64,000 bases of DNA from Mesostigma viride (lineage: Eukaryota; Streptophyta; Mesostigmatophyceae; Mesostigmatales; Mesostigmataceae), in contig RPFO01000015.1 of the NCBI GenBank assembly GCA_009746045.1, forward strand, positions 1,636,529-1,700,528. Direction: 5' to 3'. Under the pieces are notes generated by a model. The model saw only the letters and a program-made list of their open reading frames with translations, searched no databases and was not told where the DNA came from. Below, piece after piece: positions 11,691 to 63,669 of the stretch. Within the stretch, counting starts at the first letter, position 1, and every line of letters starts with the position of its first letter. A program made the translations under genes and the position numbers.

Positions 11691-11890
11691 CGCGCCGCTG
11701 AGCTCCTTGCGGCCTGGCCAGCAGCAAGTGTTCAATAGCAATCAGTGGCGGCTGCGGGCTCAGCCTCCCACAATCGGTTCCCCAAACAACAAAAATCCCG
11801 TCTCCATCGCCGGCGTGCTAGCCAGCGGTGAAGGGCATTCAACTTGTATTCACAACAGTCAACATTACCGTTGACCATTTTTCTGGGCTC

Positions 11891-13108
11891 ATGGCGCGTG
11901 GCGCGGAGCGAACGCAAGCTGCAACCCAGGACCAGGGAACGCAAGCATCAACTCCGGCGGATAGGAGTGGCGCAGCCACCGTGGCGACTGAGCCAGCTGG
12001 GGGCTCGGTCAGCACAGCTCCGGGGCAGCAGTCAGCACCAACTGCCCGGAAAGTTTTCAAGAAAGAAGAGCTGCCAAGTAAGCTGCCAGAAATTCTGACG
12101 CCGTCCGCCGTGGAGGAGTTTATTAACAGCCTGGGCGAGCTCCGGCAGGACTACAACGAACTGTCCGACGCAGTTTTCCTCACCAAGCTGCGCCGGTCAG
12201 AGGTATGCAACGAGTCTTCGGGTAATGCGGACGTGCGCGGGGTCATTATCAACGCCAGCAAAGAGGCGTGGACCTGGCCCGACACAGTGAAGGCCCTGCA
12301 AGAGGTGCTCGACACCTCAAGCTTTCCTGACGAGGAAAAGGAGGGGCAGGCGCTGGTGCGCAACCTGTCGCTTGACCCCAATTACCTCAGCTCGGACATG
12401 GCCAGATTCGCGGCCCAGGTCCGGAGCAAGGGTGTCTTGAAGCACATGAGTAGCGAATATTTACTCAGCGCAGTTCTGGATGCGCTGGGGCTGACGCCAG
12501 AGAGCCGTGCCAATGTCAAGGCCGGTCTCGGCATGAAAATTGCGCTAGCGTCTTCCGTGGTAGTGGGCACCCCGGACGACCAGAAACGGTTCAACGCAGC
12601 CATGGCGCACCTCCGAGAGATGTTCAAGGACCGGGGCGGCCCCAGGCGTAACAACAAGCTGCCAACAGTTGCTCAGGTAAACCCTGTGCCTGCCTCGACC
12701 CCGCCAGCAGCTTCTCTGTCGGACTTGACCACTCTTCTTACCCAGCTGTCCACGACGGTGGCCGACAACGTGGTGCGAATGTTGGGTGGCAAACGCCGAG
12801 CTCGCGGTGGTCGGCACAACCAGAACGCGTCCAGCAAACGCGGGCCGGGAGGCGGTCAGGGCAAGCAGCCTCGACAGGAGGGCGGCGCTGGCAGGCAGCA
12901 ACAGCAGCAGGGTGGCGTCCCCAAGGAGAAGGTCGTCTGCGAGCGGTGCACCGGCGTGGGGCACACCGAGGACAACTGCACGCTGCGGCTGGACCTCGGC
13001 AAGGCGACTCGAGTGTACGTGCCGGCGCTGCTGGGCGGTTCGGCTTCCTGGACACGACCCCAACACATGCCGCGCCCCATGGCCAGCCATGCCCAAGTGA
13101 CGTCATAG
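11891..13108 (+). CDS. K3 Gag
   Basis: A structural capsid/nucleocapsid protein of about 405 residues counted from the ATG at 11891; the frame is open upstream, but this ATG starts the conserved MARGAERT segment shared with the fragment at 4138-4750. A low-complexity N-terminus is followed by a helical capsid-like middle, a Gly/Arg/Gln-rich basic region, and a CCHC knuckle, CERCTGVGHTEDNC, near the C-terminus. It ends in a TAG; pol follows within about 8 bases in another frame. There is no aspartic protease motif between the knuckle and integrase. Confidence 0.85.
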   Translation: MARGAERTQAATQDQGTQASTPADRSGAATVATEPAGGSVSTAPGQQSAPTARKVFKKEELPSKLPEILTPSAVEEFINSLGELRQDYNELSDAVFLTKLRRSEVCNESSGNADVRGVIINASKEAWTWPDTVKALQEVLDTSSFPDEEKEGQALVRNLSLDPNYLSSDMARFAAQVRSKGVLKHMSSEYLLSAVLDALGLTPESRANVKAGLGMKIALASSVVVGTPDDQKRFNAAMAHLREMFKDRGGPRRNNKLPTVAQVNPVPASTPPAASLSDLTTLLTQLSTTVADNVVRMLGGKRRARGGRHNQNASSKRGPGGGQGKQPRQEGGAGRQQQQQGGVPKEKVVCERCTGVGHTEDNCTLRLDLGKATRVYVPALLGGSASWTRPQHMPRPMASHAQVTS

Positions 13109-13115
13109 AGGTGAT

Positions 13116-13856
13116 GTGTGTCGCGGTGAGTCGGCTAGGCGTGAGGATGCTGTGCCTTGTAGTCCTAATGTTCCCACGTCCGTGGTTCAGAATGGAAGTG
13201 CAAGTGCTGCAGCTGATCAGGAGTGCGTGCCCAGCGTGGTCGCAATAGAGCCTGAACACGCCCTTCCGGAGCTCACCCCTTCAGGTGAGATAGTGCCGGC
13301 AGATGCCAAGGTAGCCCCTCACGTAGACGTGGAGTTGGGTCGCCGCCTCAGTAAGGCCTCATTAGAGCACATTGCCGACAGGAATGCACATGCAGAGAGC
13401 TTGGCGGGGCAGGTGCCTAGCATAGAAGGGGATGGCACCACCTCCACGGCCATGGGATTGCGGATGCTTGCTCACCAGATTCACCTTGCGGTGGGTCATG
13501 TGGCGGGGCAAACGCTAGACTGGGCGACTAGGCTTATGGGGGCGCCGGGGTTGAAGGTCGCTCAGGCGGAGTTAGAGGAGTGCCACGCATGCGCAAGTGT
13601 CCGGAAGAAGCGTAGGCGCTGGCATGCTAAGACTCCTTCCCCGTACCGGGGGAGGTTAGTGGGGGATGTCATGCATTTGGAGGAGGGGGACTATTATTTG
13701 GTCTTGATGGATCGCTATACCAAGTTCCTAGCCATCGAGCCTCTGCCAAGCATGGTAGAGGAGTCCTTGTGGCGGGGGCTGCGCATTGCCATGTCTTGAA
13801 CTTCTTTCCCATTTCTGAGGTCATGTTGGACCAACAATTTGATTGCATTGTCAACT
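13116..13856 (+). pseudogene. K3 integrase N-terminal part, truncated
   Basis: Encodes a linker, then a copia-type pre-integrase zinc region (HQIHLAVGH ... CHACASVRKK) and the first part of the core with the first Asp (GDVMHLEEGDYYLVLMDRYTKF). A one-base shift near 13770 moves the frame, and the coding similarity continues to QQFDCIV at the element's end. The second Asp region is cut at the boundary and the Glu is absent, so it cannot be active. Confidence 0.85.
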
Positions 13857-35951: not shown

Positions 35952-36330
35952 ACTTGGAAAAATTTTGCAGCTTGGTCGATTTCGCCCTCGCGTCACGAAT
36001 TTGTTCCCCCTCAGTTAGGCTGGCAGCGTTCGTGCGCCGCGCCTTTGGTCTGGTCGCCGGACTTTGGTTACTAGCACCAGTATCACCTGGTATGCTGGCG
36101 GCGACAACGCGCTCCGCCTGCACTGGGCTGTTCTGGACCGCAGTTTCTGGAAGTACTTCAGCGTCTGACACGGACTTCTCCATTGCGCTGGAAACTTCTC
36201 GAATTGGCGTGAACTTCCACTGGGCCGGCGCAGAGTATAAAAAGCCACGCAGTGTGCGAGTAATGCCCAGTAGGCCGCCCCCGATCCCGCATACACGGGC
36301 AAGCATGGCCAGTATGACCGTTAGGCCCAC
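35952..36330 (-). pseudogene. N2 membrane-segment region
   Basis: Encodes the same hydrophobic stretch as N1 (GLTVILAMLARVCGIGGG) and the same Ser/Arg-rich tail up to NFSKSWT, where H1 is inserted. A 7-base duplication (CGAGCGC) just upstream puts it out of frame with the protease. Confidence 0.7.
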
Positions 36331-37375
36331 GGCCAGCCACTCCGCCGCGTGTCCCGAGGCACGTGAGATGCTGCGCTCGGCGCTCGCTGCTCGCCATTTT
36401 CTGCCCTTGACAGGCAGCGTCGTTCTTGAAGCTCGTCGCCGACGATTTCAGCTCTGGGATGGCGTCCATCGCTGCGTCCGCACCGTGCGCGGGAAAAAAG
36501 TAGGTGTTGTTCCTCGTCCCGATGCTGCAGTGCCTGCTGTCCAGCACAGCAACCCGCTTGGCGAGGTCGACGTTGTGGCCATCCTTGACGAGCTGGCCGA
36601 CAGATAGAAGTCGGGTGCTCAGCCTGGGAACGAGCAGCGCGTTTTGGAGGTGCACGTCCGCGTCCTGACCCGGCAGCTTCAGTTTGACAGTCCCGATGGC
36701 TGTCGCCTTCAGTTGGCCGCCTGAGCCGGCGATTTCCCTGTCATGAGGGTGCAGGCACACGAAGTCCGACGGGCATGGCGTCACGTGACAGCTCGCTGCG
36801 GAATCCAGCACCCAGCTGGTCGGTGCTTTCTTTTCATACTGCGTGAGTGCAGCAGCATCCGACGGCGATGGCGACTCGGCGATGGTGGCGAAGACGAAGC
36901 CGGACCGCTCCGCAGCCTCCTCGGTGATACGCGCCTCGCTGGCACCTGGTGAGTGCTCCTTTCTCGCTTGGTTCCGTCGCGTTGCCTTGTTCTTGCGTTC
37001 TTGCTTCAGCTCCGGATGCTTCTCCCAGCACTGGGTGTCCACGTGCCCGGCCTTCTTGCAGTAATTGCACCGCCTCTTTCCTCCACTTTTCTTCGTAGTA
37101 GTGTGGAAAACCTGGCCGTTAGGGGAGCCCTCCTTCTTTGCTTGAGCAGAACGCCTTCCGTGCAGTAGCTCCTCCGCCTCCAGCAGCGCAGTCTTGACCT
37201 CCTTTAGCGAATCCTCCTCTCCAGTTAGGACCTTGACCAGGTCACAATAGGCCGATGCTAAGGCCTTCAACACAGCCTTGATTTCTTCCCATTTCCTCAG
37301 AGACCGCCCATCAAACGTTGTGATGGACTTGCTTGTTGCCCGGAATTGCTTGTAGCACGCTTCCTTGGTAGCCAT
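36158..37375 (-). pseudogene. N2 Gag-protease, internally deleted
   Basis: Starts at the ATG at 37375; the open frame also runs 18 bases upstream. FDGRSLRKWEEIK is followed directly by EDSLKEVKTALLEAEELL, so about 110 residues of the Gag middle are missing relative to N1. The CCHC knuckle CNYCKKAGHVDTQC and the protease (VLDSAASCHVT) are kept. There is no stop between Gag and protease, unlike N1. After MASSER the frame is shifted by a 7-base duplication. Confidence 0.85.
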
Positions 37376-37446
37376 GGTGTCTTCAGTCGCCAATGGAACT
37401 GGATGTCTCTGGGTTCACAGTGGTCTTCTTGTTCCTCAGTAACAAA

Positions 37447-40081: not shown

Positions 40082-40086
40082 CCAGC

Positions 40087-42009
40087 TATCAGTTTGTGTC
40101 TGACTTCAGTGGCCGGGTACACGTGAAGGTACTGGGTGAGGTATCTATTCCTATCCTTGGACAGGACACTGCTTTTTGTGTCTTGGAGGGCTATCAGGGA
40201 CCTGCTCTTCTGGGGCAGAATTTCCTATGCCAGGATGGGGTAGTGATCACGTCCTCTCTCCTGACTCAGGAAGGGGCTGGTCAGGTCCCACTGATTACTT
40301 TCAGGACCACTCATCTATCACGTGCAGTAACCAGGACGGTTAAGCGTGTGCAAGTGTGCCAGGGGCAGGAGCCCTTGGTTGATGACCTCATATTGCCAGC
40401 TGCTAGTCATCCAAGCAGTTTGGGCATTGGTCCTCACTCACTTGCTGGACACAGCCCTATCAACTACCAAGGCCTGGTGAAGCTCATGTCCTCTCCCATT
40501 ATGTGTCCCCAGGTCACACTGGGTCTGATTAAATCTGGGGAGGACTGGATCTCCAAGAAATGCGTGGAACCTGTCAATGACCTGCCTCCTGCACGACGTC
40601 TACTCAAGCTCAAGTTTGTCATCAAGATGAAGGAGGTGGACGGGGTCAAGGTACCACATGTCAGGCCAGTGCTGAATGAGTTCAAGGGTACTGGTGAGTG
40701 CACTGCTGAGGAGTTATATACCCCTGGCATGCTGCATGACACTTGGAGGCTGCTGCTGTGTGTATTTCTAGGCCTTCTCAACAAGGGCTTGGACTATGGC
40801 TCAGTGGTGGTAGACTTCAAGAGGGCATTTCTGGAGGAGGATGCAGAAGATGTGGCACAGGAAAAGTGGGAGGGCAAGACGCCTTTCTATGTTAGGGTGC
40901 CTGCTGTATGGAAAAGGGACATCCACACGGAGTTCCTTAAAATCCTCAAGGGCCTGGAGGGCCTGAGGTCAAGTCCAATAATCTGGAGGGAGACTCTCAA
41001 CCGTTTCCTGAAGGAGCATTGCAACTTGAAGATCTCTCCTGTAGACCCCTGTCTGTTTCTGGGGCAATGGGAAGGCCTACCAGTGTATGCTTCGCTGCAC
41101 GGAGATGACCTGCACCTGCTGGCTCCCACGTCGTGGCTTAAGGAGCTAATCTCCATCATTAAGTCCAAGTTTCCTCTGGGTAGGGAGCAATGGCAGGTGG
41201 AGAATGAGCCTCTGCTGTTTGTGGGCATGGAGGCCACACTGGTGAAGAAGGGGGGGAGTGGCGTATGCTGCTGGTGGGGGGTTAATGATTATCAAGAAAC
41301 CCTCATTAGCAAGCTTCCTCCAACCATCACACAGGCACTGTGTCCTATGGTCAGGGGCATGGTTGCTTGGGTGGCAGGCATTTCCAGGCCAGACCTTATG
41401 GTCATAGCCAGGTTGCCTGATGACATGCTGATGGAGCTAGGGTCTGCCAAGGTGGCTGATCAGGTCAGGGCTTCATCTGGCATTCTGTTGTCTGCAGTGG
41501 ATTTATCACAACCCATTTGCATGGAGCTGTATGTGGATAGCTCAATGGACAGCAGGCAGGTCTCCAAGGTCAGGGGCAGGGCTGCAGGGCTCTTTGTGCT
41601 CAGACAGGAAGGCCTGGGGAGTTTGGTGAGCTGGTTTAGTCGCCTGCACAAACGGGTGGCTGTCAGCAGTGATGTGGCAGAATGCAGGGCTATTTGTGAA
41701 GGCATTCACACAAGCCTTTATCTGAAGGAGTTGCTTCATCAGATGACTTCTAACACTCCTTGGCCACTTCAGGTTACCACTCTTCTCAAAACAGACTCCA
41801 TGGGGATGGTGCAATTTGTGCACAGGCAGATGGCCAGAAGTAGGGACTTGGATTATCTCCTTCTTAAGGAATTGTCCTCCTTGGCCAATATTGAGCATAT
41901 CCCTGGGGTTGACAATCCTGCTGATGCTTTGACCAAGCTAGTGCAGAAGGCAGCAGTGCAATACAAGGTTCTTCAGTCTCTGATGGACCCATCTCAGCAA
42001 GCTGTCTAA
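40087..42009 (+). CDS. K2 protease C-terminal half, reverse transcriptase and RNase H
   Basis: The frame is open from G1's edge; the first ATG is at 40096. Residues 12-44 match the end of an aspartic protease (VLGEVSIPILG ... GPALLGQNFL, compare ILG-x-x-FL). Copia-type RT follows: VVDFKRAFLEE with the first Asp at about residue 240, GLEGLRSSPIIWRE, SPVDPCLF, and the catalytic box LHGDDLHLL at 335-338, where copia normally has YVDD. RNase H: YVDSSMDSR, SSDVAECRAICEG, TDSMGMVQF, PGVDNPADALTK. No stop. K1 has the same order, with integrase before the protease. Confidence 0.9.
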   Translation, partial: YQFVSDFSGRVHVKVLGEVSIPILGQDTAFCVLEGYQGPALLGQNFLCQDGVVITSSLLTQEGAGQVPLITFRTTHLSRAVTRTVKRVQVCQGQEPLVDDLILPAASHPSSLGIGPHSLAGHSPINYQGLVKLMSSPIMCPQVTLGLIKSGEDWISKKCVEPVNDLPPARRLLKLKFVIKMKEVDGVKVPHVRPVLNEFKGTGECTAEELYTPGMLHDTWRLLLCVFLGLLNKGLDYGSVVVDFKRAFLEEDAEDVAQEKWEGKTPFYVRVPAVWKRDIHTEFLKILKGLEGLRSSPIIWRETLNRFLKEHCNLKISPVDPCLFLGQWEGLPVYASLHGDDLHLLAPTSWLKELISIIKSKFPLGREQWQVENEPLLFVGMEATLVKKGGSGVCCWWGVNDYQETLISKLPPTITQALCPMVRGMVAWVAGISRPDLMVIARLPDDMLMELGSAKVADQVRASSGILLSAVDLSQPICMELYVDSSMDSRQVSKVRGRAAGLFVLRQEGLGSLVSWFSRLHKRVAVSSDVAECRAICEGIHTSLYLKELLHQMTSNTPWPLQVTTLLKTDSMGMVQFVHRQMARSRDLDYLLLKELSSLANIEHIPGVDNPADALTKLVQKAAVQYKVLQSLMDPSQQAV

Positions 42010-50250: not shown

Positions 50251-50957
50251 TTCTCCAGGGGGGAAGTGACCGTGTACGCATCGGTCTCCTCCTCCTCCTC
50301 CGGTTGGTCCAGCGCCGAGTGTAGGTACTCAGACACGACCACCGGAGATCCAAGAGGTTCCAGATGAAAAATGTTCTGAACCACAGCCCCAAGGGGAACC
50401 CACGTGTGGGATCCCTCCCCTTCCCCGGGGGACCGCGCGTCCACGCGCTGGTCGTCGTCGCCATCGGGGGGCGACAAGGCATCCGGAGTGGTATGACTCA
50501 TGTGGAACAGGTAGCGCGCCCGCGGCGACCCTGGGAGGTCATCGTAGAGCGTGGCGCCAGGCGCCTCCTCGCAGGTGGTGTGGAGCACCCCCATGTCCTC
50601 ATAGAACCAGTAGTCAGCACGACGGGAGAGGGCATCGGGCACCACATTGTCCGCACCCTTCACATACTGGATCTTAAAAGGGGCGAACTGGGAAAGGTAC
50701 TCCATCCATCTGGCCTGACGGGGCGTCAGATTTGGCTGCGTCAAGAGGTGAGTCAGGGGCCTATGGTCCGTGTGAATAATCAAACGGGCGGGGTCAAGGT
50801 CCCCCGTCTCACTGACCGCAACATCAAACTGCGCGCCCAACAGGTGGTGGCGCCATGTGTGGCAACAGTAGACCACAGCCAAAAGCTCTTGGTGGTGGAC
50901 CGGATAGTTCCGCTCCGCAGGGATCATTGTGCGGGAGATGTACTCAACCGGTTGCAA
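50244..50957 (-). pseudogene. G3 RNase H and linker
   Basis: QPVEYISRTMIPAERNYP, HHQELLAVVYCCHTWRHH, DHRPLTHLL and PDALSRRAD, followed by the acidic linker. Frameshifts at about 50253 and 50970 isolate it from its neighbours. Confidence 0.92.
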
Positions 50958-52996
50958 GCCCTTGCCTTGGGATCCTGCAGGAGGACCCCGCCGATGGCCA
51001 CCTTGCTCGCATCCGTCGCAACCACAAAAGGAAGGGACGGGTCTGGGAGCACGAGCACTGGGGCCGCAGTCAAACTGGCCTTGAGGGCCTCAAAGGCCTG
51101 CTGGCACTGTGCCGACCAGACAAAGGACACGCCCTTCTTGAGGAGAGCGTTGATGGGCGACGTGATCGTGGCAAACCGGGGGATGAAGCGCCGATAGTAT
51201 GACGCAATCCCCAGGAAGCTACGCACGCCCTTCACGTCGGTCGGAGCTGGCCACTGTTGGACAGAGGCGATCTTCTCTGGGTCCGTGGCCACGCCTGCTG
51301 CAGAAAGCGTGTGGCCCAGGAACGGGACGCTGCGCCCCGCGCGGACCTTGGCCCTGCGGGCCGAGAGATGCTCGTCCTCCATGATGCGCAGGACCGTATC
51401 GACGTCCTCCAGGTGCTCCTCAAAAGTCTTTGAGTACACCAGGATGTCATCCAGATGGGCCAAAGCGCAAGTGCGTTTCCAGGACCAGGGCGGCTTGTCC
51501 CCCTTGCGAGGGTCGCGCAGGTCACTGGATACCTGTGGCAGGTGTGCGGTCCCCATGACGGGCCGCAAGATGTCGTTCATGAGCATCTGGAAGCTGGCGG
51601 GTGAGTTGCAGAGCCCCATCGCCGCCACGCGGAACTGGTAGTGTCCGTATGGCGTATTGAAGGCCGTCTTGTGACAGTCCTCTTCAGCGATGCGGAGCTG
51701 CCAAAACCCATCGGCGCAGTCGATCACCGTGAAGCAGGTGGCGCCCTGCACCCGATTGAAGATGTCATCAATGCGCGGGAGCGGGTACTTGGACTTGACA
51801 GTGATCGCGTTGAGCTTCCTGTAGTCGGTGACGAGCCGCCACTTGCCCCCAGGCTTGGGCACAAGGAGTACCCCAGCTGAGAAGGGGCTGTTACTGGGCT
51901 CAATCAGACCACGCTCATGGAGGGCCATCAGGATCTTCTTGAGTTCCATCAGCTCGACTGGACCCATCCGATACATCGGGGACGTGGTGGGCCCGTAGCC
52001 TTCCTTGAGGCGGATGTGATGCAGCACGGAGCGAGGCGGAGGGAACTGCGGCGTGGTCTCGTCAAACAGCTTCTCTCGTTTGGCTAGGACCGCGTTGTAG
52101 CGCGTGACCTCGTCCTCGGTGAAGTCCGTGCCAATCTCCATCAGCTCCTGAAGCAGGGGCACAGAGTCAAGGCGGTACATGTAGTACTCCTTGCCCTTCT
52201 GCAGGTTGCGCGCGAGCGTCTTGCTGCTCATCAGCATCTGAGAAGCATGACGTCGTGGCTTCTCGGGCCCCGAGTCGTGCTGAACACTGTGCACCTCGGT
52301 GCCGTGCGCCATGTATTCGTGTCGCGGGCACCAAAAGGAGCCATCAGGGAACCAAACCACCCGGCGCTTGACACTGATCGTCACGTCCTGGGCGTCCTGC
52401 CAATCCACGCCCAGGATGATGTCGGCTGCGCCCAGCGGCACCACTGTGGCTGTTACCTCCACTGGGATGCCCTGGACAACCGCCTTGAGGTCCACGAGGC
52501 CAGGGGACGGGTGCTTGTTACCATCGGCATACCGGACGTTGATGGGCGTCGGGTGTGGTCGAATCGTGTAGCCCGCACGTCGCACCAGGGCCTCATGGAT
52601 AAAAGATGTGGTCGCCCCCGTATCCACCATAAACTTAACATCCAGGATCGTCTTCTCCTTCAGAAACGGGTCAAGTGTTGTGGTAGGGAGCGCCAGTCCA
52701 CCACTGAAGATTAAAAGTGTTCTGGTGCTTGGTGAAGCATAGGGCGGCGAGGCCTCCGGGGCCTGTCCGCTAGACCTATCTACACTATTGGCTGAAGCGG
52801 GGTCAACCGCGGTCGCCGACACGCCTGCATCTGAAGAGGGCGAGGAGACCGCTGGGGCCTGCCCGCCCGTCCTATCTACATTATTGACTAACGCTACATC
52901 GGCCTCAGGGGTGGCCGCGCCCACATCCGGTGCAGGCTTCTGTTCTATCTGGTTGACTAAGTCTACTCCTACTTCTACCCCTGTGGGAAGGGGCAC
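50924..52996 (-). pseudogene. G3 protease and reverse transcriptase
   Basis: Protease FMVDTGATTSF; RT LVPKPGGKWRLVTDYRKLN, FTVIDCADGFWQLRI, FLGIASYYRRF. The catalytic box reads AHLDDILVYSK: the usual Tyr before LDD is His. The frame is open upstream across the end of gag (GGLPAPRSSR), as in G1. The region as a whole is a pseudogene because of downstream frameshifts. Confidence 0.93.
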
Positions 52997-53233
52997 TATG
53001 CGCGAGGATCGCGGGGCCGGGAGGCCGCCTCGTCCGACCGCCTGGTCCCCCCTTCCCCCTCATCCGAGTCGTCGTCATCACCGTGGTTGAGTGCCTCATA
53101 CTTTTCACCCGCAGCCTCGGATGCCTGATGCTGCGCCAGAATTTCATTGAGCTCGCGCACCGTCCGAGAGAACGACGCTGGGAGGTCGGGTGTCTGGAAC
53201 TGGTTGGGCTGCGTGCGCGCCTCGCGCAGCTTG
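52997..53233 (-). CDS. G3 Gag C-terminal piece
   Basis: KLREARTQPNQFQTP, FSRTVRELNEILAQHQA and an acidic NHGDDDDSDEGEGG tail, ending in a TAG just before the pol segment. Without K1 it joins to NAGARAAK at 61638. It corresponds to the G1 Gag end. Confidence 0.85.
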
Positions 53234-53887
53234 AGTTAGCATATTGGGGCACCAATGTGCTAGATGGATGCAGGTTGAGGAGACCTTTCCAACGCCGTGT
53301 CAACCGCCTAGAACAGACAAGGGACGAGAAAGATATCAAGTCCCGAAGTACTGCCGACCGGTGGGCGAGGGCGGGGCACACTCAGGGCATAGTGGACAGG
53401 ACACGTGGCAGGCCGTGCCTGCACAGGCTTAGCCTGGACTCTCACGTGACTGGGACACAGTGTACTGAGGACTCAACGGTACTGTGGCTAGTAGAAGCCA
53501 GTAACCAGCCAGCAGGTCTGCAAGGATGTAAGTCCTTGCAGGACTGTGGCAGGTCCTGTGCTGTCCTAGACACAGGATAGCCAGAGATTCCTGTATGCTG
53601 CCTGCAACGAGGATGCAAGGCAGCGATACGAGGCTCTGGCAATGTAGCGTTGCCCAGCGTTGCTCATGACCGAGGAACAAGGATGGAACGAGGTTGCATA
53701 TAGCTCGAGGCTCAACGAGGCAACGAGCGTCTTCACACACGAACCTTGGTCGTCACGACGAGTGGCGAGCCTATCGAGGGTCGTAGGCCTGGTGTGAGGA
53801 TAAAGGTTGCTAGCCAGCAGCCTAGGGTCATTCCAGCCGGCAAGGACCAGGAGCTCACAAGCTCTGCTGACGAGTTGCTGCGCAAAT
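53234..53887 (+). repeat. K1 5' LTR
   Basis: 654 bases, AGTTAGCATATTGG...GCGCAAAT. The bases that follow (CGTACTATTGCTTCC) do not resemble the TGGTATCG primer site of the other elements. Confidence 0.92.
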
Positions 53888-53910
53888 CGTACTATTGCTT
53901 CCACGCTTTC

Positions 53911-55046
53911 ATGTCTGGTTCATCGTCAAGCAGCCACGGTGCTGGTGAGGCGAACGAGCAGAGAGACGCGCAAGCGTTTTTCCCCTACCGTAACCAAGCA
54001 AACGCTCCAACATTCGTGCAAGCGGCCTACGTAGCGAGGCACTTGGCAGAAGAGGGGTGGGTGGCGGTGAGTGGGGGAGGCAACAGGCCAGCGGCGGCGG
54101 ACCCGATTATTCAACGGGCTCGCGTCGTGATTTCTCCAGGTGAGACGGGGCGAGTGGCGGTGGAAGAGTTGGTGCGCATTCGGACGCGCTAGCTGAAACT
54201 GCTAATCGTGTGGAGGTCGCTTATCAGGGCGCCCATATCACGCTTGCCGGTCTCGACCTAGCCAGGGAGGCGCTTAGCCAGATCGTGGCAACAGCGCTCG
54301 GCAGCACCAGACTGTTCAACCACTGGGTGGCGACAGCAGTGCTAGGAGAGGGGGTACCAGACGCCGACATCATCCGGAACGCGCGTGCTCGGGAGACGGT
54401 AAATCCTTGGAGCACGGCGGAGGTATTTGCCCAAACCATTGAGAATCTTGTTGCTGTCTTTTTGCAAGAGTCGAGAGGGTACGCAGACAGGTTCTATATT
54501 ACCACGCAGCCTTTCGGGGTATACTCCAGGCTTGATACACCGAGGCCGGAAACCACCACTGCGTGGGGTCCGGAGGTGGAGATTGTCGCAGGGGTCGAGA
54601 AGACGCCTGAAGACGTCCATTTTGAGTGGACTGACAAGCCAGAGGGCTCCGTCAAGCGCTCAGCCCAGCAGATAAACGAGGGCGACGGCACTACCGAGAC
54701 CTACGAGGCAAGGCAGAGAGCTGATCTGCATATCCCTCGTGAGGTGACTCACGAGTAGGACCGTTACGGCCGAGGCGAGCAGAACGAGCTTGTCGGCGGC
54801 GGTAAGCGGTGGTTGCGCAATCTTGCTTGGCATCGCAACCCAGGCGAGACACAACATCCAGTCGAACGCAAGGAAGACGGGCGACCTGTGACCTGCGTGC
54901 TGGGAGAGTTTAACCCAGACCTCCAGATTGTCGCAGAGGCAGCAGCAGCCACAACGGTTGCTGAGGGTGTTGAGCAGCGTCCAGACCGTGAGGAGGGGCA
55001 GGCGAGTGCAAGCCAGGAGGCGACCTCGTCTGGAGTAAGTGCGTGA
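53911..55046 (+). pseudogene. K1 upstream ORF, unknown function
   Basis: Begins with ATG at 53911 (MSGSSSSSHGAGEANEQR), 24 bases after the LTR. One frame runs to a TAG at 54190; a second continues as DALAETANRVEVAYQG ... to a TAG at 54756, then in the same frame to the TGA at 55044. The protein would be about 375 residues with ordered-looking segments (PTFVQAAYVARHLAEEGW, NPWSTAEVFAQTIENLV). A GTAAGT donor near 55033 and a downstream open stretch with an NRKRKEV basic patch (about 55199-55423) suggest a spliced leader to Gag. I recognise no family. Confidence 0.5.
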
Positions 55047-55485
55047 GCCTGAGTGGGTTCCAGCAGCCATATCTGCGTGTGTTTTCTGTGGTATTCTATA
55101 ATGCTTCGTAACACGCGCGGGGCGGCAGCGGGAGCGGGGCGGGAGCGGGGGATGGCGGGGGTGAGGCAAGGGCAGACACGGGAGGCCCCGCCAACGTCGT
55201 GCCAGAGGGACAGGCAATCCCAACGGCAGAGGGCGTCAATGGCAGGAGGGCGTCCAACCGGAAGAGGAAAGAGGTGGCACAAGGGGAGGAGCGTGCAGGG
55301 TGGCCAACCGACGGCGTGGTGCTGACGGGGGAGGGCCAGAATGATGCTGAACGGCAAGCACCTGGTAAGAGACCATGTGTGCCTCCGTCTGGTGTTCCTG
55401 CAGCTATGTTCCTGCGCCATTAGCACCAGTAGGAGCTGCTGTCATTGGCAGTGACCCTCGTGCTTTGCCTGGGACTAGACCTCAT

Positions 55486-56448
55486 ATGAGTGCTGTGGCT
55501 GTGATGAATGGCCAGAAGCCTCTCAAGCCTCCTGTGGGACAGGAAGAGCTAGACAAGTGGTTGGAGGATATGGAGCTAGTTTCATGCTCTGTAGATCCCA
55601 CTGTCAACCTTGTGCAGGTATTCCACACATCCACGACTAATAGGGATTCAAGTGAGCGGGTGAGGGACAAGGCTAGGCAGGCTGTCAAGGACAAGCTGAC
55701 TTGGTCTCAGTTCCTAGAGGGCCTACGTCAGGAGTTTTCTGATAAGGTACTCAACCTCACTAATCACTATAAGCTCAGCTATGATACCTTTGAGATCAAG
55801 GGCACAATAGCTGAGGAGCTGCAGCGGCTCACACGCATCAGGGAGAAGGGGGCCAAGCATGGCTTCAATCTGACTGATAGAGCAGTGGCAGATTACTTCC
55901 TGGATCGCATGGGGCTGAGTGTGGATGGGAGAAATGCAGCTAGGATGTTTGCTGATCAGACAGATGGGACGTGGCCAGCCTTGCAAAAGGTTATTTTCAA
56001 TATCCGTCCATCTGACAATGCTGCTTGCAAGGCAATCCAGGTGACTGGTGCCCCTTCAGCCTCCGCTCATCAGGTCCATGGTGACGCCCCTGGGCAGGGT
56101 GCTCAGGGAGAAACCAGACCTAGTAGGCGTCAGAGGGCTAACAGGCGCAGGCAGAATGGTAACCAGGGTGGCAAGGGCCAGCAGCAGGGATCCAAAGGCA
56201 AGGGTCAGCAGCAGGCTGGTGGTCACCAGGGTGGTCAGCAGAACAAGGGTGGCCAAGGGCAAGGCAAGAGCCAGGGCCAGGGCACCCAGGCCAGTCAGAG
56301 CAGCCAGAACCAGGGTGGCCTGAAGAAGGCTGCTGCTGGGAAGGATGACAAATGCTTTGGATGTGGCAGGACGGGTCATTGGCGACGTGACTGCCCAGAC
56401 CAGGCCAAGTCTGCTGGAGCAGGCTCTGGCCAGGTGGGTAAGCCATGA
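55486..56448 (+). CDS. K1 Gag
   Basis: The frame is open from 55375, but the ATG at 55486 (MSAVAVMNGQKPL) is a good start. The capsid-like part contains LDKWLEDMELVS, LTWSQFLEGLRQEF and YFLDRMGLSVDGRN. A long Gly/Gln/Lys-rich stretch follows, then the CCHC knuckle CFGCGRTGHWRRDC. It ends in a TGA directly in frame with pol, so read-through could make Gag-Pol. Confidence 0.88.
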   Translation: MSAVAVMNGQKPLKPPVGQEELDKWLEDMELVSCSVDPTVNLVQVFHTSTTNRDSSERVRDKARQAVKDKLTWSQFLEGLRQEFSDKVLNLTNHYKLSYDTFEIKGTIAEELQRLTRIREKGAKHGFNLTDRAVADYFLDRMGLSVDGRNAARMFADQTDGTWPALQKVIFNIRPSDNAACKAIQVTGAPSASAHQVHGDAPGQGAQGETRPSRRQRANRRRQNGNQGGKGQQQGSKGKGQQQAGGHQGGQQNKGGQGQGKSQGQGTQASQSSQNQGGLKKAAAGKDDKCFGCGRTGHWRRDCPDQAKSAGAGSGQVGKP

Positions 56449-56454
56449 CTTGAG

Positions 56455-59400
56455 ATGTTGTCCCCTGTAAATAGTCAATCACCCCTAGTGGGACGAACAG
56501 TTGTACATAGTAATGGGGGTGTCCCTCTTGTGCAGCAGCAAGGGGTTGGGAATGATGAGGTGCTTCCACTCAATGATTGCAATAACGCTGCTGCAGCAGT
56601 GGAATTCCCTGTGCCTGTGGCAGGTGCAGGGTCTCCAGTTGTTGGGGTTGACTCTGGGAGTCAAGCCGCCAGACTGGAAGGACCTGCAGCTTCTGTGGGA
56701 ACCGGGGCTGGCTCTGGGAGCCGAGCTACCTTGGAGGAGGTCCCTGGAGCAAGAGAACAGCAGGTGGGTCGTGCTATCCCAAGCACACAGTCTTTGTCAC
56801 GTTCCTCTCTGTGCAGCCAGGCTGACAGGGGGTTGAGCTATGCTCAGGCTGGAAACACTCTACACCATATCTTTGGTCACTCTAAGCAGGCAGAGATGTT
56901 TGCTTGGAAGATTGGCAAGGAGCCTTTGCTAGAGGCCTGCAGTGCAGCTGCTCAGAATTGTGTCTGTCAGGAGAATGCTGTTCGCCTCCCACAGTCCCAT
57001 GCCAGAGAACCTGCTAGAGAGCGGGGGGATATCCAGGTGGACATCCAACACATCAGGGGCATGTATCTGTTGGTGGGGGTGGATAGGTTTAGCAGATATA
57101 GGTTGCTGACCATTCTTCCTGGAATGCAGGAGCATCAGCTGTTGATGGGTCTCCAGTCTTTGTTGCCAGGCTTTGGGGTGTACACCAAGGTGCAAGCTGA
57201 CTTGCAGTTTGACTGCTTGATCAAGCTGGCTGACCAGCTTCCTTGTAAGTTGGTAGTGGTCCCTAGGGAATGCCATGGGCAGCAGGGAGCTGTAGAGAGA
57301 TCTATACGTGAAGTAAAAACAGTGGTGCTAGCAGCTAGGAGTGTGCCTGTTGTGGCATCAGCTCTAGAGAAAGCAGCTTGGTGTAAGGGGATTGAGGAGC
57401 AGCTTAACCACAGGGTAACCTATTACTATGATGGTGTGGCAGTCTCTCCCCTGGCATTGCAGTTTGGTATGCTATCACAGGACGTGGTGGCAGCCTGCCT
57501 GAAGAAGGCAGACAGGGTGTTTTCCAGATTGAGGCGTAAGGACAAGGGTTGGAAAATGCTGAGGCCCCAGGTGGGACTGAGGGTCAGGATGTGGAAGGAA
57601 CCGTCATTACCAGGCAAGCGTGGCAAGTGGCAAGATGGGCAGGTAACCCATGTTGAGGAAGCTAACCATTCTTGTCTGGTGGCTTTGGAGAGTAATCCCA
57701 AGCACGTGTACAGGCTATCCTGGGCTCACGTCAAGGAGAGAAGGCCAACTGCAATCTGGCCTGAAGACGGCCCTGATCCTCCCTTGGAGGGAGATGAGCA
57801 GGATGAGAGCCAGGCAGCAGATGCTAACCCACCATGCTTGGATTATGGTCTGTCCTGGATGGATGAGGGTGAGCAGGAGTCTGCTGAGACGTCTGTCACA
57901 AGGCCAGAGGTGGCCAGGGCTGCACCACAGTCCAGGGGGCTGCTTATGGCGGACATCATTCGAGCTCTGCAGAACAGCAAGCGTGATCCCAAGGTATCTA
58001 AGCTCACGGGATGGGGGTCATGTGGGGCACCAGCACTAGAAGTGGATACCAACTCACAGGTGTCCATTCTAAGGGTAGAGGATGCTGCAGGCTTGCAGTG
58101 GTCATCCCCTAGCTGCCTAGCTGTGTCTGATTTCTCTGGGAATGTGTCCATGAAGATCTTGGGAGAAGTGAGTGTGCCTATCCTGGGGGTGCCCACCACG
58201 TTCAGTGTGGTTGAAGGGTATCAGGGGCCTGCCATTCTAGGTCAGAACTTCTTGTGCTTACCAGGGGTGAGGATATCCTCTGAGGAGCTAGCATTAGAAG
58301 GGCAGGGCCGCCTTCCCTTGCAGAGATATCGCTACTCCCAGGGTCTTAGTGTGGCTGTAAGGGCTGTGAGGGGTCTAGAGGCAGAGGGTCCTGATACAAA
58401 GGAGCCCATTGCTGGGGACCTGCTGATCCTCCCTACTACGTTTGACCCACGTGAGTTGGGTGTGCAGAGGTACCAGATCCCAGGAACGAGTCCTGTACCT
58501 TGGCGCAAGCTAGTGGAGATGATGCAAAGCCCCAAGATGGCTAAGGCATGGACTCTTGGCTTTGTTGCTTCTGGGCATGAGTGGATAGTTGCCAACTGTG
58601 CAGAGCCTGTGGATGTCCTCCCTGAGGATCACCAGCTGCTCAGATTGATGTTTGTCCTCAAGCTCAAGGAGGTAGATGGCGTGCAGGTGCCACATGTTAG
58701 ACCAGTTGTGACTGAGTACCATGGCACTGGACAGTTAGCAGATGAGGAGCTTTACACACCAGGGATGCTGCATGATACATGGAGGATTTTGTTGTGCATT
58801 TATTTGTCTTTTCTGCAGAAGGGGATACCCTATAGCTCTGTGTTGGTAGATTTCAAGAGGGCTTTTCTTAAGGGTGATCAGCAGGAAGCACAGGATACTT
58901 GGCGCACAATACCCCCTTTCTTTGTTAAGGTGCCTGCAGTGTGGAGGGCAGAGCTGAAGACGAGGTATTTGAGGATTCTCAAAGGCGTGGAAGGCCTTAG
59001 ATCGAGTCCCATCATCTGGAGGAAGAGCTTGGAGAAGTACCTCAGGTCTGTCTGTGGTCTCTCAGTCTCTCCAGTTGATCCTTGTCTGTTTCAGGGTAGC
59101 TATGAGGGGCTGCCAGCGTTTGCCTCCCTGCATGGTGATGATCTGCATCTCCTGGGCCATCCCACTTGGCAAGAGTTGACTCTGGCCAGGATCCAGAAAC
59201 GGTTTGAACTGGGTAAGATCCAGTACATGGTTGAGAATGAGCCCATGGTGTTTTGTGGAATGCAGGCGACCTTGGTCCATCAGCAGGGTACATGGTCCAT
59301 CCAGCTGGAGGGTGGTAAGGATTATCCTCAGCAGATCATAGATGCCTTGCAGGAGCCCATCACCCAGGCCAGATGTGCAACAATACGAGGTATGTTGGCA

Positions 59401-59688
59401 TGGCTGGCCAGCATTTGTGCTCCTGACCTGTTGGTACTGAGTCGGTTGACCGATTCCCAACTGGTTGAGGTGGGTGCTGAGAGAGTGGTAGAGGCTGTTC
59501 GCATGTCTCCCCCTCTCATGCTGGGTCCTTTGGATTTGTACAGGCCTTTTGACATGATGCTCTATGTGGACAGTTCTATGGATAGTAGGAAGGTCACAGA
59601 GGTCAGGGGCCGTGCAGCAGCATTAATATCCCTGGTGCAGGAACAGTCCTCTCTGGTCTGCTGGTACAGTCGGTTGCAAACAGGGTAA
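56455..59688 (+). CDS. K1 Pol: integrase, protease, reverse transcriptase, start of RNase H
   Basis: Domains by residue. Pre-integrase zinc region about 136-170 (LHHIFGHSK ... CVCQEN). Integrase core with D196 (VDIQHIRG), D249 (VQADLQFD) and E281 (GAVERSIRE). Then an aspartic-protease-like domain at about 525-605: ALEVDTNSQVSIL (D531-T-N instead of D-T/S-G) through VVEGYQGPAILGQNFL. Copia RT at about 690-960, with D799 (VDFKRAFL) and HGDD at 893-896. RNase H begins at about 1035 (LYVDSSMDSR). In standard copia elements protease precedes integrase; here it follows. The frame ends at a one-base loss in a G run (about 59683). Confidence 0.9.
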   Translation: MLSPVNSQSPLVGRTVVHSNGGVPLVQQQGVGNDEVLPLNDCNNAAAAVEFPVPVAGAGSPVVGVDSGSQAARLEGPAASVGTGAGSGSRATLEEVPGAREQQVGRAIPSTQSLSRSSLCSQADRGLSYAQAGNTLHHIFGHSKQAEMFAWKIGKEPLLEACSAAAQNCVCQENAVRLPQSHAREPARERGDIQVDIQHIRGMYLLVGVDRFSRYRLLTILPGMQEHQLLMGLQSLLPGFGVYTKVQADLQFDCLIKLADQLPCKLVVVPRECHGQQGAVERSIREVKTVVLAARSVPVVASALEKAAWCKGIEEQLNHRVTYYYDGVAVSPLALQFGMLSQDVVAACLKKADRVFSRLRRKDKGWKMLRPQVGLRVRMWKEPSLPGKRGKWQDGQVTHVEEANHSCLVALESNPKHVYRLSWAHVKERRPTAIWPEDGPDPPLEGDEQDESQAADANPPCLDYGLSWMDEGEQESAETSVTRPEVARAAPQSRGLLMADIIRALQNSKRDPKVSKLTGWGSCGAPALEVDTNSQVSILRVEDAAGLQWSSPSCLAVSDFSGNVSMKILGEVSVPILGVPTTFSVVEGYQGPAILGQNFLCLPGVRISSEELALEGQGRLPLQRYRYSQGLSVAVRAVRGLEAEGPDTKEPIAGDLLILPTTFDPRELGVQRYQIPGTSPVPWRKLVEMMQSPKMAKAWTLGFVASGHEWIVANCAEPVDVLPEDHQLLRLMFVLKLKEVDGVQVPHVRPVVTEYHGTGQLADEELYTPGMLHDTWRILLCIYLSFLQKGIPYSSVLVDFKRAFLKGDQQEAQDTWRTIPPFFVKVPAVWRAELKTRYLRILKGVEGLRSSPIIWRKSLEKYLRSVCGLSVSPVDPCLFQGSYEGLPAFASLHGDDLHLLGHPTWQELTLARIQKRFELGKIQYMVENEPMVFCGMQATLVHQQGTWSIQLEGGKDYPQQIIDALQEPITQARCATIRGMLAWLASICAPDLLVLSRLTDSQLVEVGAERVVEAVRMSPPLMLGPLDLYRPFDMMLYVDSSMDSRKVTEVRGRAAALISLVQEQSSLVCWYSRLQTG

Positions 59689-60041
59689 CTCCCAGCAGTG
59701 ACATTGCTGAGTGCAGGGCAATCTGTGAAGGGCTTCATACTGCTCTTTACTTGAGGGAGCTATTTTACCAGCTATGTCAAGTGGCTTCCTGTCGGTTGCA
59801 GATGCACACACTGGTAAGAACTGACAGCATGGGCATGGTGCAGTTTGTGCACAGGCAGCTGGCCAGGAGCAGGGACCTTGATTATTTGTTGCTCAAGGAA
59901 ATGTCTTGCTTAGCTAACATTGAACATGTGGCTGGCGTGGACAACCCTGCAGATGCTCTCACCAAGCTGGAGGAGAAGGCTGAGCTGCAATACCCTTTGC
60001 TTCGTGGGCTCATGGCCTCCAAGGGGGGAGGGCCAGAGTAG
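59686..60041 (+). pseudogene. K1 RNase H C-terminal part, after a frameshift
   Basis: Continues the RNase H line in a second frame: SDIAECRAICEG, TDSMGMVQFVHRQLARS, HVAGVDNPADALTK, ending SKGGGPE. Alignment with K2 shows one base missing near 59683. Confidence 0.88.
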
Positions 60042-60978
60042 ACCAAACAGCCTTGCTCTAGGTGGGAGGCATCCCAGTGGGCTGGGCAGCCACGTGGTGG
60101 CTGACAGCAGGTCCTTCAGAGTTCAGACACACTCTGCTGGACAGGGGTCAGGGTGGAGTCACTCCCCTGGCTGAGAATTTCGCCTGGCTCTGTCATGGAG
60201 CTGCAGAAGAGTCTTAAGGACTTTGTAATGGGCCTTGGGTCTTCATGGAATGGACCCTGCAAGGGCAGCCCAAGTGTTGGCTCTAACAGGTTGCTGTACA
60301 TTTGTATATATTCTCTGTAACCAACCTGTTGCATGCTAATAAAATCCCTGGTTGTGTGACCATGTTGGACGTGGTTGCCAGGGGCCTCACTATGGGTTAT
60401 ACTCCTTTATAATAAAACATAATCTTGTTATTGTCATGTCTTGTTGTTTGTGATGCTCAGTTCCAGGAGCTGATCCAAACCTGGAGGATATGGGGTGGGG
60501 TTCGATTCCCCAGCTGACCTCAGCCTGGCATGTATGAATCCTGAGTTTATCCCTCAGTGAGGACATGGGCTCCCCATGTGTTGGCTAACATTTGTCAGGG
60601 CTCTCTCAGTCTTTGGAAGGATTTAAAAGATAAAGGAGGCTCCGTGGCGGGCGCCATATGAACGGGCGCCTGTGATAACTGGATGACCAGGAACTCACAA
60701 TAGTACGTTCATGGACTCCTCTATCCAAACTCCTCTGACTAAGTGAAGACCTAACTTTAATCTACACCAGGTTCCCAAAGAAAGGGTTGGGATGTCATGT
60801 GGGTCAGAGGGCAACCTTTGAACCAATGAGCAGGCCTAGCTAATATTTGGAGGCACCTCAGGTTCCAAAAGAAAAGGCAGGTCTGGTCTCTGGGAGGGAT
60901 CAGATGTCTGAAGGCTTGTGGGGACAGTGGCTGATAGGTTCTCAGGCTGGTCCAAGCTCCAAAACAAGAAAGGGTTGG
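60042..60978 (+). promoter_or_regulatory. K1 3' UTR with T-arm-like hairpin, twin GGCGCC boxes and three PPT-like tracts
   Basis: TGGGG-TTCGATT-CCCCA at 60496-60512 folds like a tRNA T arm. CGGGCGCC is repeated after 7 bases at about 60648-60670. Purine tracts resembling the true PPT occur near 60770 (CCCAAAGAAAGGGTTGGG), 60866 (CCAAAAGAAAAGG) and 60958-60978 (AAAACAAGAAAGGGTTGG), the last at the LTR. AATAAA-type sites lie at about 60340 and 60410. Confidence 0.7.
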
Positions 60979-61632
60979 AGTTAGCATATTGGGGCACCAA
61001 TGTGCTAGATGGATGCAGGTTGAGGAGACCTTTCCAACGCCGTGTCAACCGCCTAGAACAGACAAGGGACTAGAAAGTTATCAAGTCCCGAAGTACTGCC
61101 GACCGGTGGGCGAGGGCGGGGCACACTCAGGGCATAGTGGACAGGACACGTGGCAGGCCGTGCCTGCACAGGCTTAGCCTGGACTCTCACGTGACTGGGA
61201 CACCGTGTACTGAGGGCTCAACGGTACTGTGGCTAGTAGAAGCCAGTAACCAGCCAGCAGGTCTGCAAGGATGTACGTCCTTGCAGGACTGTGGCAGGTC
61301 CTGTGCTGTCCTAGACACAGGATAGCCAGAGATTCCTGTATGATGCCTGCAACGAGGATGCAAGGCAGCGATACGAGGCTCTGGCAATGTAGCGTTGCCC
61401 AGCGTTGCTCATGACCGAGGAACAAGGATGGAACGAGGTTGCATATAGCTCGAGGCTCAACGAGGCAACAAGCGTCTTCACACACGAACCTTGGTCGTCA
61501 CGACGAGTGGCGAGCCTATCGAGGGTCGTAGGCCTGGTGTGAGGATAAAGGTTGCTAGCCAGCAGCCTAGGGTCATTCCAGCCGGCAAGGACCAGGAGCT
61601 CACAAGCTCTGCTGACGAGTTGCTGAGCAAAT
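60979..61632 (+). repeat. K1 3' LTR
   Basis: 654 bases, nearly identical to 53234-53887, ending GAGCAAAT against TSD GCTTG. Confidence 0.93.
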
Positions 61633-61637
61633 GCTTG

Positions 61638-63669
61638 GCAGCCCGCGCGCCCGCGTTGCGCGGGTGGGCATCCCGCGCTGCAGGCGTTGGGCGCTTCTCA
61701 AAGGCGGGACCAGAAAACTTGGGGGCCTCCTTGGTGGCCTCCGTCGCCGTGCTGGTGCGGTGCGCGCCTTGAGACGCGGACAGTCCTTCTTGAGGTGTCC
61801 GACCTCGTGGCACATGAAACAGCGGGCCTTGGACGCGTCGATGGCGTGCAGTTGGATGGCCGGCTGCTCGTCGTCATTAGACTCCTCCCCTTCCGCAGGG
61901 ACGGGTTCCACCTCCGTGAAGTGGACGCGGTGAGGCGCCGGGGGCGGTATGAACCGCCTTGTGCTGGCTGAGCGCCGGCGCTTGATGACATCGGCCACCT
62001 GGAGGAGGTACTGCTGGACGGCATGGATGTCGAGGCGTTCCCAAGGGACCTCAGCGTAGTGTTTCGTAACCTCGTCCAAGAGGTCAGGGTGAATAGCCTC
62101 CAGAAACCGAATCTTGTACTCGGTCCACGTCAGGTCCCCGGTCAGCCGCGCCGCAAAGGAGTCAAAGGTGGTGAGGAACTCCGCCAAGTCAGTGTTGCCC
62201 TGACGTAGGCGTCCAAACTCAAACCGCTCGGTCAGTCGATAGCCGGGAGGGATGAGCTCGGGCCGGATGCGCGCCAGCAGTTTCTCCACTGTCTGCGGGT
62301 AATAATGACTGAGACGCCACACTCTCGACGTTAAGCATCCCTACCACTGATGGGTCCATACACGTACTTCACCACCACGTAGGGGATCAGAACCTTGGTG
62401 GCCAGCTGCCACTCATGGTGTTCACACCATACAGTGTACAACTGTTGCCACATACGAGCCCACTCGTCAATCTCACGGGGAGTCATGCCCGCATGGAGCT
62501 TGGGCACCGCCTTAAAATCTGGCATAGGCGGCGCCTTGACAGGGTCAGGTCGCAGGGGGCCACCCTTGCTGCAGTACGCGGGGCTAGAAAAGGTGAGGGG
62601 CTGGTGACACCGCGCCCGCATCTCCTGGTGCGAACCCCTTCCTGCAGTCTGGTCATGCCCACGTCGGGACACGAAGGTGTCCTCCTCACGCTCGGGATCG
62701 AAGTCGCCGGATACTTAGCGGGGCGCGTAGTCAGCGGACACCGGCTGTGACGCAAAGGGGGCCGACTCACGCCGAACTCGAACGGACGTGGGATGCTCAT
62801 AACCGGGGTCATCCAGGGGCAGCCGGCTGAAGTTAGCGTTGGTGGGCGCGCTCCTTGCTGGGAGGGAGGTGGGTATGTAAGGAAAGGGGCCCGGGGGAGC
62901 ATAGTCCTCCTCGGGATCGTACTGCACGTACGTGGGCCGACCCTGACGTCTGCGGTGGGGATCTGGACCAGCTCTCGTGCGCTCCAAAGGAGACCCGACG
63001 CGGATCCCTTCCAGGGCCCGGCCCCGGCCCGCCGCGGCCACGCCCTGCCCAAGGGTGAGTCAGGCTCGGGCGGCCACGCGCGTATGCCCCCAATTGAGAG
63101 GGCTGCACGAACTCAGGCGGCGGAGCGAACGGCGAGCTAGCTACCAGGCTATCAGCGACCTCTATATCTTCATCTTCCTCCGGCACAACTTCCACGGATG
63201 GTGGTCGCTGCGTGGGAGGTACCCTGTTCCATTCGCCCAGATGCTCAGTCGGTCGTGGCCGCGATTGCTGCTGGGGCTGTCGCTGTTGCTCCGACTGCTG
63301 CTGCTGCTGCGACTGCTGCTGCTGCTGCGACTGATGCTGTCTCTGCAGCGACTGCTGAGACTGATGCTGTCGCTGCGGCGACTGCTGAGGCTGATGCTGT
63401 CGCTGCGGCGACTGCTGAGGCTGATGCTGTCGCTGCGGCGACTGCTGTTGCTGACCAAACCCTAGGGCAGCCTGTTCTAGCTGCGTCTCAAGAGTCGTCT
63501 GCCGTTGTGCGGTAACCCTAGCGGCTGCCTCGGATCTCCGGGACCCACTGGAACTCCAACTAGACGTGCTAGCTATTTCCTGTTCTTCCCTGCTATTGTC
63601 CTCCGGGGACTGTGTCTCTCTACGGCCCTTTGGGGGCTGTGCATTACCACCACCTCGCTTCTTAGGCAT
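61638..63669 (-). pseudogene. G3 Gag, N-terminal and middle part
   Basis: ATG at 63669 (MPKKRGGGNAQPPKG). A Gln-rich low-complexity part is followed by LPLDDPGYEHPTSVRVRR, the capsid region (DFKAVPKLHAGMTPREIDEW, LAEFLTTFDSFAARL), the CCHC knuckle CFMCHEVGHLKKDC and NAGARAAK, where K1 is inserted. The line changes frame at about 62850, 62700 and 62330, and again beyond the knuckle, so it is not functional. Confidence 0.88.
63331..63450. repeat. Four tandem 30-base repeats inside G3 gag
   Basis: Units at 63331, 63361, 63391 and 63421, each a whole number of codons, encode a ten-residue unit close to SPQRQHQPQQ. A CTG/CAG-rich stretch (63285-63330) adjoins. Typical of replication slippage in a disordered Gag N-terminus. 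Confidence 0.92.

Follow-up and report, generated by a model that had tools for sequence, protein, structure and literature searches.

A copia-class retrotransposon group of the streptophyte alga Mesostigma viride with a retropepsin-like domain between integrase and reverse transcriptase

Superfamilies of long terminal repeat (LTR) elements are defined and annotated by the order of their Pol domains: Ty1/copia elements (Pseudoviridae) are arranged as Gag, protease (PR), integrase (IN), reverse transcriptase (RT) and RNase H (RH), and Ty3/gypsy elements (Metaviridae) as Gag-PR-RT-RH-IN. The Gmr1 lineage is described as a Ty3/gypsy element with the copia-like order of IN (PMC2774666), and a plant survey discarded elements of unexpected domain order as mispredictions (PMC6317226), a practice by which real exceptions are easily lost. 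Here we analyse a stretch of 64,000 nucleotides of the Mesostigma viride genome (contig RPFO01000015.1, positions 1,636,529 to 1,700,528; hereafter the window), which contains K1, a complete 8.4-kb LTR retrotransposon (53233-61632) nested inside a gypsy element. From sequence comparison, the domain order IN-PR-RT-RH is well supported in K1 and its relatives, which carry a copia-class RT and, between IN and RT, a retropepsin-like domain. A literature search covering top-ranked titles and the beginnings of abstracts, with most subscription journals outside its coverage, found no report of the order IN-PR-RT.

The succession of IN, PR-like domain, RT and RNase H characterizes five lineages, namely K1, F2, F3 (the family of K3, a second element of the window), F4 and P0001, a protein of a public protein set, and was seen in the Pol of the copies read in each family. 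Gag lies upstream of IN in K1, F2, F3 and F4, P0001 being known from Pol only. The order is not a product of chance, since it recurs in lineages that are only 35-76% identical at the amino-acid level in RT, and with a constant spacing within the PR-like domain, whose two motifs, where both occur, start 66-67 residues apart. The initial annotation had read K1 as a copia-like lineage with the order Gag-IN-PR-RT-RH, which fits neither superfamily, and had named recurrence of this order in other genomic copies as support; order, RT class and recurrence are borne out by the profile alignment of RT, by the five lineages and by the copies read of K1, F2, F3 and F4. Its further suggestion, that the processing of Pol would be altered, hinges on whether the domain can catalyse cleavage. 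Its Pol coordinates, the IN residues D196, D249 and E281, and the motifs VDTNSQVSIL (530-539) and PAILGQNFL (592-600) all fall in place in the numbering of the alignment, and K2, a 5'-truncated relative in the window (521 aa aligned with K1 at 52.6% identity), indeed begins inside the PR-like domain and continues into RT.

The identity of the integrase is secure, and it lies upstream of RT as in Ty1/copia elements. A profile of K1, P0001 and K3 matched 50 sequences of the PDB (E up to 1.2), 40 of them integrases, with retroviral Pol or integrase chains in the top five places (E 0.015-0.052); the other ten, mostly ISCU-type proteins, aligned to a different part. The AlphaFold model of the K1 integrase has a predicted local distance difference test score (pLDDT) of 59 overall and of 61-82 at segment residues 61-140, and the top 50 of its 1244 Foldseek rows are all retroviral integrases (best E 8e-10, probability 1.00); the TM-scores are just 0.20-0.34, so the mutual arrangement of the three integrase domains is not predicted. 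The catalytic Glu of K1, F2 and P0001 (GAVER, GVVER and GLVER, respectively) is replaced by Asp in F3 and F4 (GLIDR and GMIDR; copies L033 and L037), which makes two catalytic motifs variable within the K1 group.

The RT of the K1 group is assigned to the copia class by profile comparison: a profile of K1, K2, P0001, P0002 and P0003 aligned with the canonical copia Pol P0004 at an hhalign probability of 97.6% (E 3.9e-12), and with the gypsy RTs of the window at 0.2%. The Pfam RVT_2 match of K2 (E 2e-5) lies below Pfam's own cut-off, indicating that the K1 lineage is a divergent copia. Neither of the features that define Ty3/gypsy elements, an IN located 3' of RNase H and a gypsy-class RT, occurs in the K1 group.

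Several lines of comparison relate the domain between IN and RT to retropepsins. In Pfam, gag-asp_proteas is the top match of the P0001 segment, at E 0.0023 (whole protein, 0.086), the sole match of the F4 segment (E 0.26) and the second-ranked match of the F2 segment (E 0.16). A profile of the K1, P0001 and K2 segments matched seven PDB sequences, of which six are retropepsins and the seventh is NFAT. Four of the six are ASPRV1 sequences (E 0.69-1.1) aligned across both motifs and in register, with EVDTNAQVSV over LVDSGAQVSV and ailGqn over aiiGtd, that is, at the D and at the hhG motif (h, hydrophobic residue); the other two are tethered-dimer proteases, which we take to be those of HIV, aligned over the second half only (E 0.27-0.33). 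In the controls, the reversed profile gave one match, not a protease, and a profile of the linker between Gag and IN matched neither the PDB nor the gypsy proteases. Against the gypsy proteases of the window, the three-sequence profile gave a low-probability alignment of 21 columns at the hhG motif, while a six-sequence profile including F2-F4 aligned in register over 83 columns with a score of 16.4; column permutation reached this score in 12 of 300 trials and 80 columns in none of 300, and the reversed six-sequence profile scored 13.4 over 12 columns.

The domain is also conserved beyond its surroundings. Its identity between pairs of lineages (30-62%) exceeds that of the IN core in nine of ten pairs, being equal after rounding in F3-F4, and that of both flanking linkers in seven of ten; the exceptions all concern the PR-RT linker (F2-F4, a tie at 32%; F2-P0001, 62 versus 70%; P0001-F4, 30 versus 34%). 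Over the 49 codons of the domain shared by K1 and K2, the proportion of nonsynonymous differences (pN) is 0.22 and that of synonymous differences (pS) 0.77, with synonymous change saturated. From these comparisons, the PR-like domain is under constraint.

The catalytic triplet is DTN in K1, F2 and P0001, DTM in F3 and DTQ in F4, and never DTG, a peculiarity overlooked in the initial annotation. When searched with a pattern allowing any third residue, the motif is present in 44 of 47 loci, window K1 included (40 of 43 distinct places, since four pairs of loci coincide), and lacking in L021 (the truncated K3 of the window), L023 and L028. Of these 44 loci, 41 also have the hhG motif downstream, at a distance of 66-67 residues between motif starts, and in the other three the frame stops earlier. 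D-T and the following A/S are kept; of the two residues before them, K1, F2 and P0001 have E at the first. Compared with the retropepsin signature given in PMC4140852 (two hydrophobic residues, D-[TS]-G-[STA] and a downstream hh-G), the K1 group thus has the downstream hh-G and departs from the triplet, Gly being replaced by N, M or Q.

Between Gag and Pol, the copies read of K1, F2 and F3 have a single in-frame TGA followed by C, which suggests that their Gag-Pol is produced by stop-codon readthrough; for K1, re-initiation at an ATG six bases downstream is a possible alternative. Within F3 the junction varies: in the K3 copy of the window (13101-13108) and in L034, Pol is out of frame with Gag and overlaps it by at most 8 nt, and in L033, L035 and L036 the TGA is in frame.

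We conclude that the central domain is likely, although not proven, to be a retropepsin, and hold the combination of this domain order with a retropepsin-like fold with nearly the same high confidence; that the domain is an active enzyme is favoured only slightly over its being inactive. Overall, K1 probably represents a recently amplified copia-class group with the order Gag-IN-PR-RT-RH, in which a central retropepsin-type domain with an hhG motif (ILGxxFL) would process Gag-Pol. In the proposed mechanism, Gag-Pol would be made by reading through the single TGA-C stop (K1, F2, F3), the central PR would dimerise once two precursors meet in the particle, and it would then cleave Gag/IN, IN/PR and PR/RT from the centre of the precursor outward, so that IN would be freed by a protease located downstream of it. 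Evenly balanced is the broader scenario in which a copia-class clade of streptophyte algae moved PR to, or replaced it at, the site between IN and RT and transposed recently, with either an active DT[N/M/Q] triplet or no active protease of its own.

Several results weigh against the proposal of a central, working retropepsin in a recently amplified element. The PR segments of K1, K2 and F3 had no Pfam match (E up to 10 in a first scan and up to 1 in a later one), the PDB matches reach E-values of merely 0.27-1.1, and only two of them, both proteases, persist with the six-sequence profile (E 1.7-2.2). The hhalign probability of the alignment with gypsy proteases is below 1%, AlphaFold returned no usable model of the K1 segment (pLDDT 31.9), and Foldseek with this model found nothing under E 1.8. 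No lineage has Gly in its triplet, and the LTRs of window K1 differ at 8 of 655 positions (1.2%), a divergence greater than that of Pol between copies. Structure prediction, the check suggested in the initial annotation, was uninformative for the PR segment. Three renin-containing Foldseek entries (E 6.5-8.2, among the 50 rows shown) were not used as evidence.

The main alternative, which we regard as a serious but less probable one, is a pseudoprotease that has kept the retropepsin fold, perhaps for dimerisation or for the packing of Pol, and has lost catalysis, Pol being cut by a host enzyme or left uncleaved. Catalysis is indeed the weakest step of our explanation, owing to the glycine-less triplet: all five lineages retain D-T but carry N, M or Q at the third place, where the signature given in PMC4140852 has Gly. 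However, D and T are invariant among lineages with only 30-37% identity in PR, and a dead enzyme would not need them; moreover, the copies are near-identical and no other protease was found. The triplet raises the question of whether a retropepsin can work without its active-site Gly or an LTR element can amplify without a protease of its own, and both answers bear on the maturation of Gag-Pol precursors. We know of no other active retropepsin that lacks this glycine.

It is unlikely that the domain is not a retropepsin at all and represents instead an unrelated beta domain that imitates both motifs. Every homology score is weak, and AlphaFold and Foldseek gave nothing, but Pfam (in three lineages), the PDB profile and the gypsy alignment all point to retropepsins with D and hhG in register, and neither the linker profile nor the reversed profile gave a protease. 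A PDB search with the profile of the whole Pol returned two matches, both unrelated.

Far less probable still, and largely excluded, is that the usual copia protease persists in cryptic form in Gag or in the linker between Gag and IN, with the domain before RT as an addition. Look-alikes of the first motif do occur at VDSGS (K1 Pol 66), VDTGA (Gag of F4 copy L037) and LDTGA (linker of the same copy, kept in L041), but VDSGS is missing from F2 and P0001, VDTGA reads VDAGA in L041, and none of the look-alikes has an hhG partner at 55-85 residues, a pattern that misses the LLSVGQL form of copia proteases. Applied to one copy each of K1, F2, F3 and F4 and to P0001 (Pol only), this motif-pair pattern had the domain before RT as its single match. 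Pfam found no protease in Gag plus linker of K1, K3, F3 and F4, nor in the linker of P0001 and F2 (the Gag of these two was outside the scan), in contrast to the canonical copia Gag-PR of the same window, which it readily detected (Pol_BBD, E 1.5e-13); for K3, the absence of a protease between the Gag knuckle and integrase agrees with the initial annotation. Finally, an artefact of nested insertion, chimeric assembly or frame accident is refuted, because, although the window is full of nested elements and K1 itself is frameshifted, K1 is bounded by LTRs and a target-site duplication, the host frame is continuous across the site once K1 is taken out, and dozens of copies on many contigs, as well as P0001, share the domain order.

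The LTR pair and the target-site duplication of K1 are those of an LTR element. K1 interrupts gag of a gypsy element on the minus strand; with the flanks of K1 joined and GCTT counted once, the host frame reads ...AAKLREARTQPNQFQTP, in agreement with ...AAKLQNARRQPAQYQTP in an uninterrupted relative, which shows that the borders are real. The LTR termini are GAGTTA...GCAAAT instead of the usual TG...CA, and the 3' LTRs of copies L042-L044 have the same end. Among K1 copies the LTRs vary by 0.3-1.2%, with Pol almost identical. The 5' LTR of window K1 is nearest to that of L047, and the 3' LTR is identical to L007 over its first 209 nt; LTRs of mixed parentage, produced by template switching, are possible. 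The excess of LTR over Pol divergence, not fully explained, makes any age of individual insertions tentative.

In the 440-Mb assembly of the same genome (GCA_009746045.1), all copy counts are minimum values, scoring having been limited to the best candidates. As query, K1 Pol returned 44 rows, with 43 of 9518 candidates scored: at least 26 with a frame of 1195-1205 aa without stops, 10, window included, with a shorter frame of 1077-1079 aa and complete or near-complete coverage, and 8 shorter still or damaged. A programmed frameshift in the RNase H of K1 was dismissed, the frame being open at that place in 26 listed copies. With P0001 as query, all 38 listed rows are open at 1196 aa and 63-64% identical to it (family F2). 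The K3 integrase had 151 matches, among those listed 13 with a frame of 1249 aa (F3) and 42 at 40% identity, five of which were read (F4). Differences within families number 0-1 in 3177 nt for K1 (10 loci versus the window), 1-22 in 3588 nt for F2 (12 loci), 0-2 in 3747 nt for F3 (4 loci) and 9-13 of 4700 nt among L037, L038 and L039 of F4; the 709-718 differences of L040 from these three in an ungapped comparison probably reflect an indel offset. F4 has a frame change within Pol: in copies L037-L040 a first frame of 934 aa encodes Gag together with IN, and a run of 8 C precedes the second frame, which holds PR and RT. In L041 the run has 9 C, and PR is preceded by an insertion. Programmed slippage, decay or sequencing error are all possible causes of the frame change.

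A search of 5.8 billion proteins, in which only about 7990 candidates sharing most words were scored, returned one relative, P0001, with K1 Pol or the first profile as query, and also P0002, P0003 and the distant P0004 with K2. P0003, a Mesostigma viride gene model of EukProt, shares 84% identity with K1 across 345 aa. A profile built without K3 finds the integrase part of K3 at E 4.3e-13. Among viral contigs and prokaryote contigs, no relative was confirmed. K1 has an additional open reading frame (ORF) 5' of Gag, in which 301-306 residues are open in L042-L044 (parts read); its part at 54210-54755 matched no Pfam family above the cut-off. The window is crowded with nested elements, whose features are listed together with those of K1 in Table 1.

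Table 1. Features of K1 and of other elements in the window (positions in the window; E, E-value)
Feature	Position	Strand	Evidence or remark
K1 target-site duplication GCTT, left	53229..53232	.	4 bp
K1 5' LTR	53233..53887	+	655 bp; 647/655 identical to 60978-61632
Extra K1 ORF, between 5' LTR and Gag	53909..55045	+	frame broken in window copy
K1 Gag ORF, 357 aa, one CCHC knuckle	55375..56448	+	zf-CCHC E 2e-5
In-frame TGA, then C, between K1 Gag and Pol	56446..56448	+	same layout in F2, F3
K1 Pol ORF, 1077 aa, integrase to RT uninterrupted	56455..59688	+	ORF reading
K1 integrase zinc domain, H137 H142 C169 C171	56839..57009	+	
K1 integrase catalytic core, D196 D249 E281	57010..57489	+	PDB profile E 0.015 to retroviral integrase; Foldseek 8e-10
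K1 integrase C-terminal beta domain	57490..57774	+	AlphaFold strands at segment residues 249-295
K1 retropepsin-like domain, aa 526-612, VDTNSQ ... ILGQNFL	58030..58290	+	Pfam (relatives P0001, F2 and F4), PDB profile, hhalign, spacing
K1 copia-class RT (DFKRAFL, LHGDD)	58660..59334	+	RVT_2 E 0.002; hhalign with canonical copia Pol 97.6%
K1 RNase H, one frameshift in window copy	59572..60041	+	frame open in 26 listed copies
K1 3' LTR	60978..61632	+	purine-rich, polypurine-tract-like stretch 60961-60977 directly 5'
K1 target-site duplication GCTT, right	61633..61636	.	4 bp
Gypsy element split by K1	50924-53232 and 61633-63669	-	Gag knuckle, PR, RT
K2, 5'-truncated relative	40084..42009 (about)	+	end of PR-like domain, RT, RNase H in one frame
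K3 Gag ORF (F3 family)	11828..13108	+	Gag knuckle
K3 Pol start: linker, integrase zinc domain, core start; truncated	13101..13799	+	other copies 1249 aa
Canonical copia fragment, protease straight after Gag knuckle (DSAASCH)	36158-37393	-	Pol_BBD E 1.5e-13
Canonical copia fragment, protease straight after Gag knuckle	20409-22451	+	

Compared with known systems, the K1 group resembles Ty1/copia in the class of its RT and RNase H, in the position of IN before RT and in the HHCC plus DDE integrase found in K1, F2 and P0001, and differs from it in having PR after, and not before, IN. The two also differ in the protease itself: the canonical copia copy of the window has LLSVGQL as second motif, whereas the K1 group has hhGxxF (ILGQNFL) and a triplet without Gly. 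With Ty3/gypsy it shares PR directly before RT and the ILG-type motif seen in the gypsy copies of the window, but its IN precedes PR and its RT is not of the gypsy class. Like the K1 group, the Gmr1 lineage is a case of LTR elements with a displaced Pol domain; Gmr1 has IN at the copia place in a gypsy element, whereas in the K1 group it is PR that occupies a new place, in an element of the copia class.

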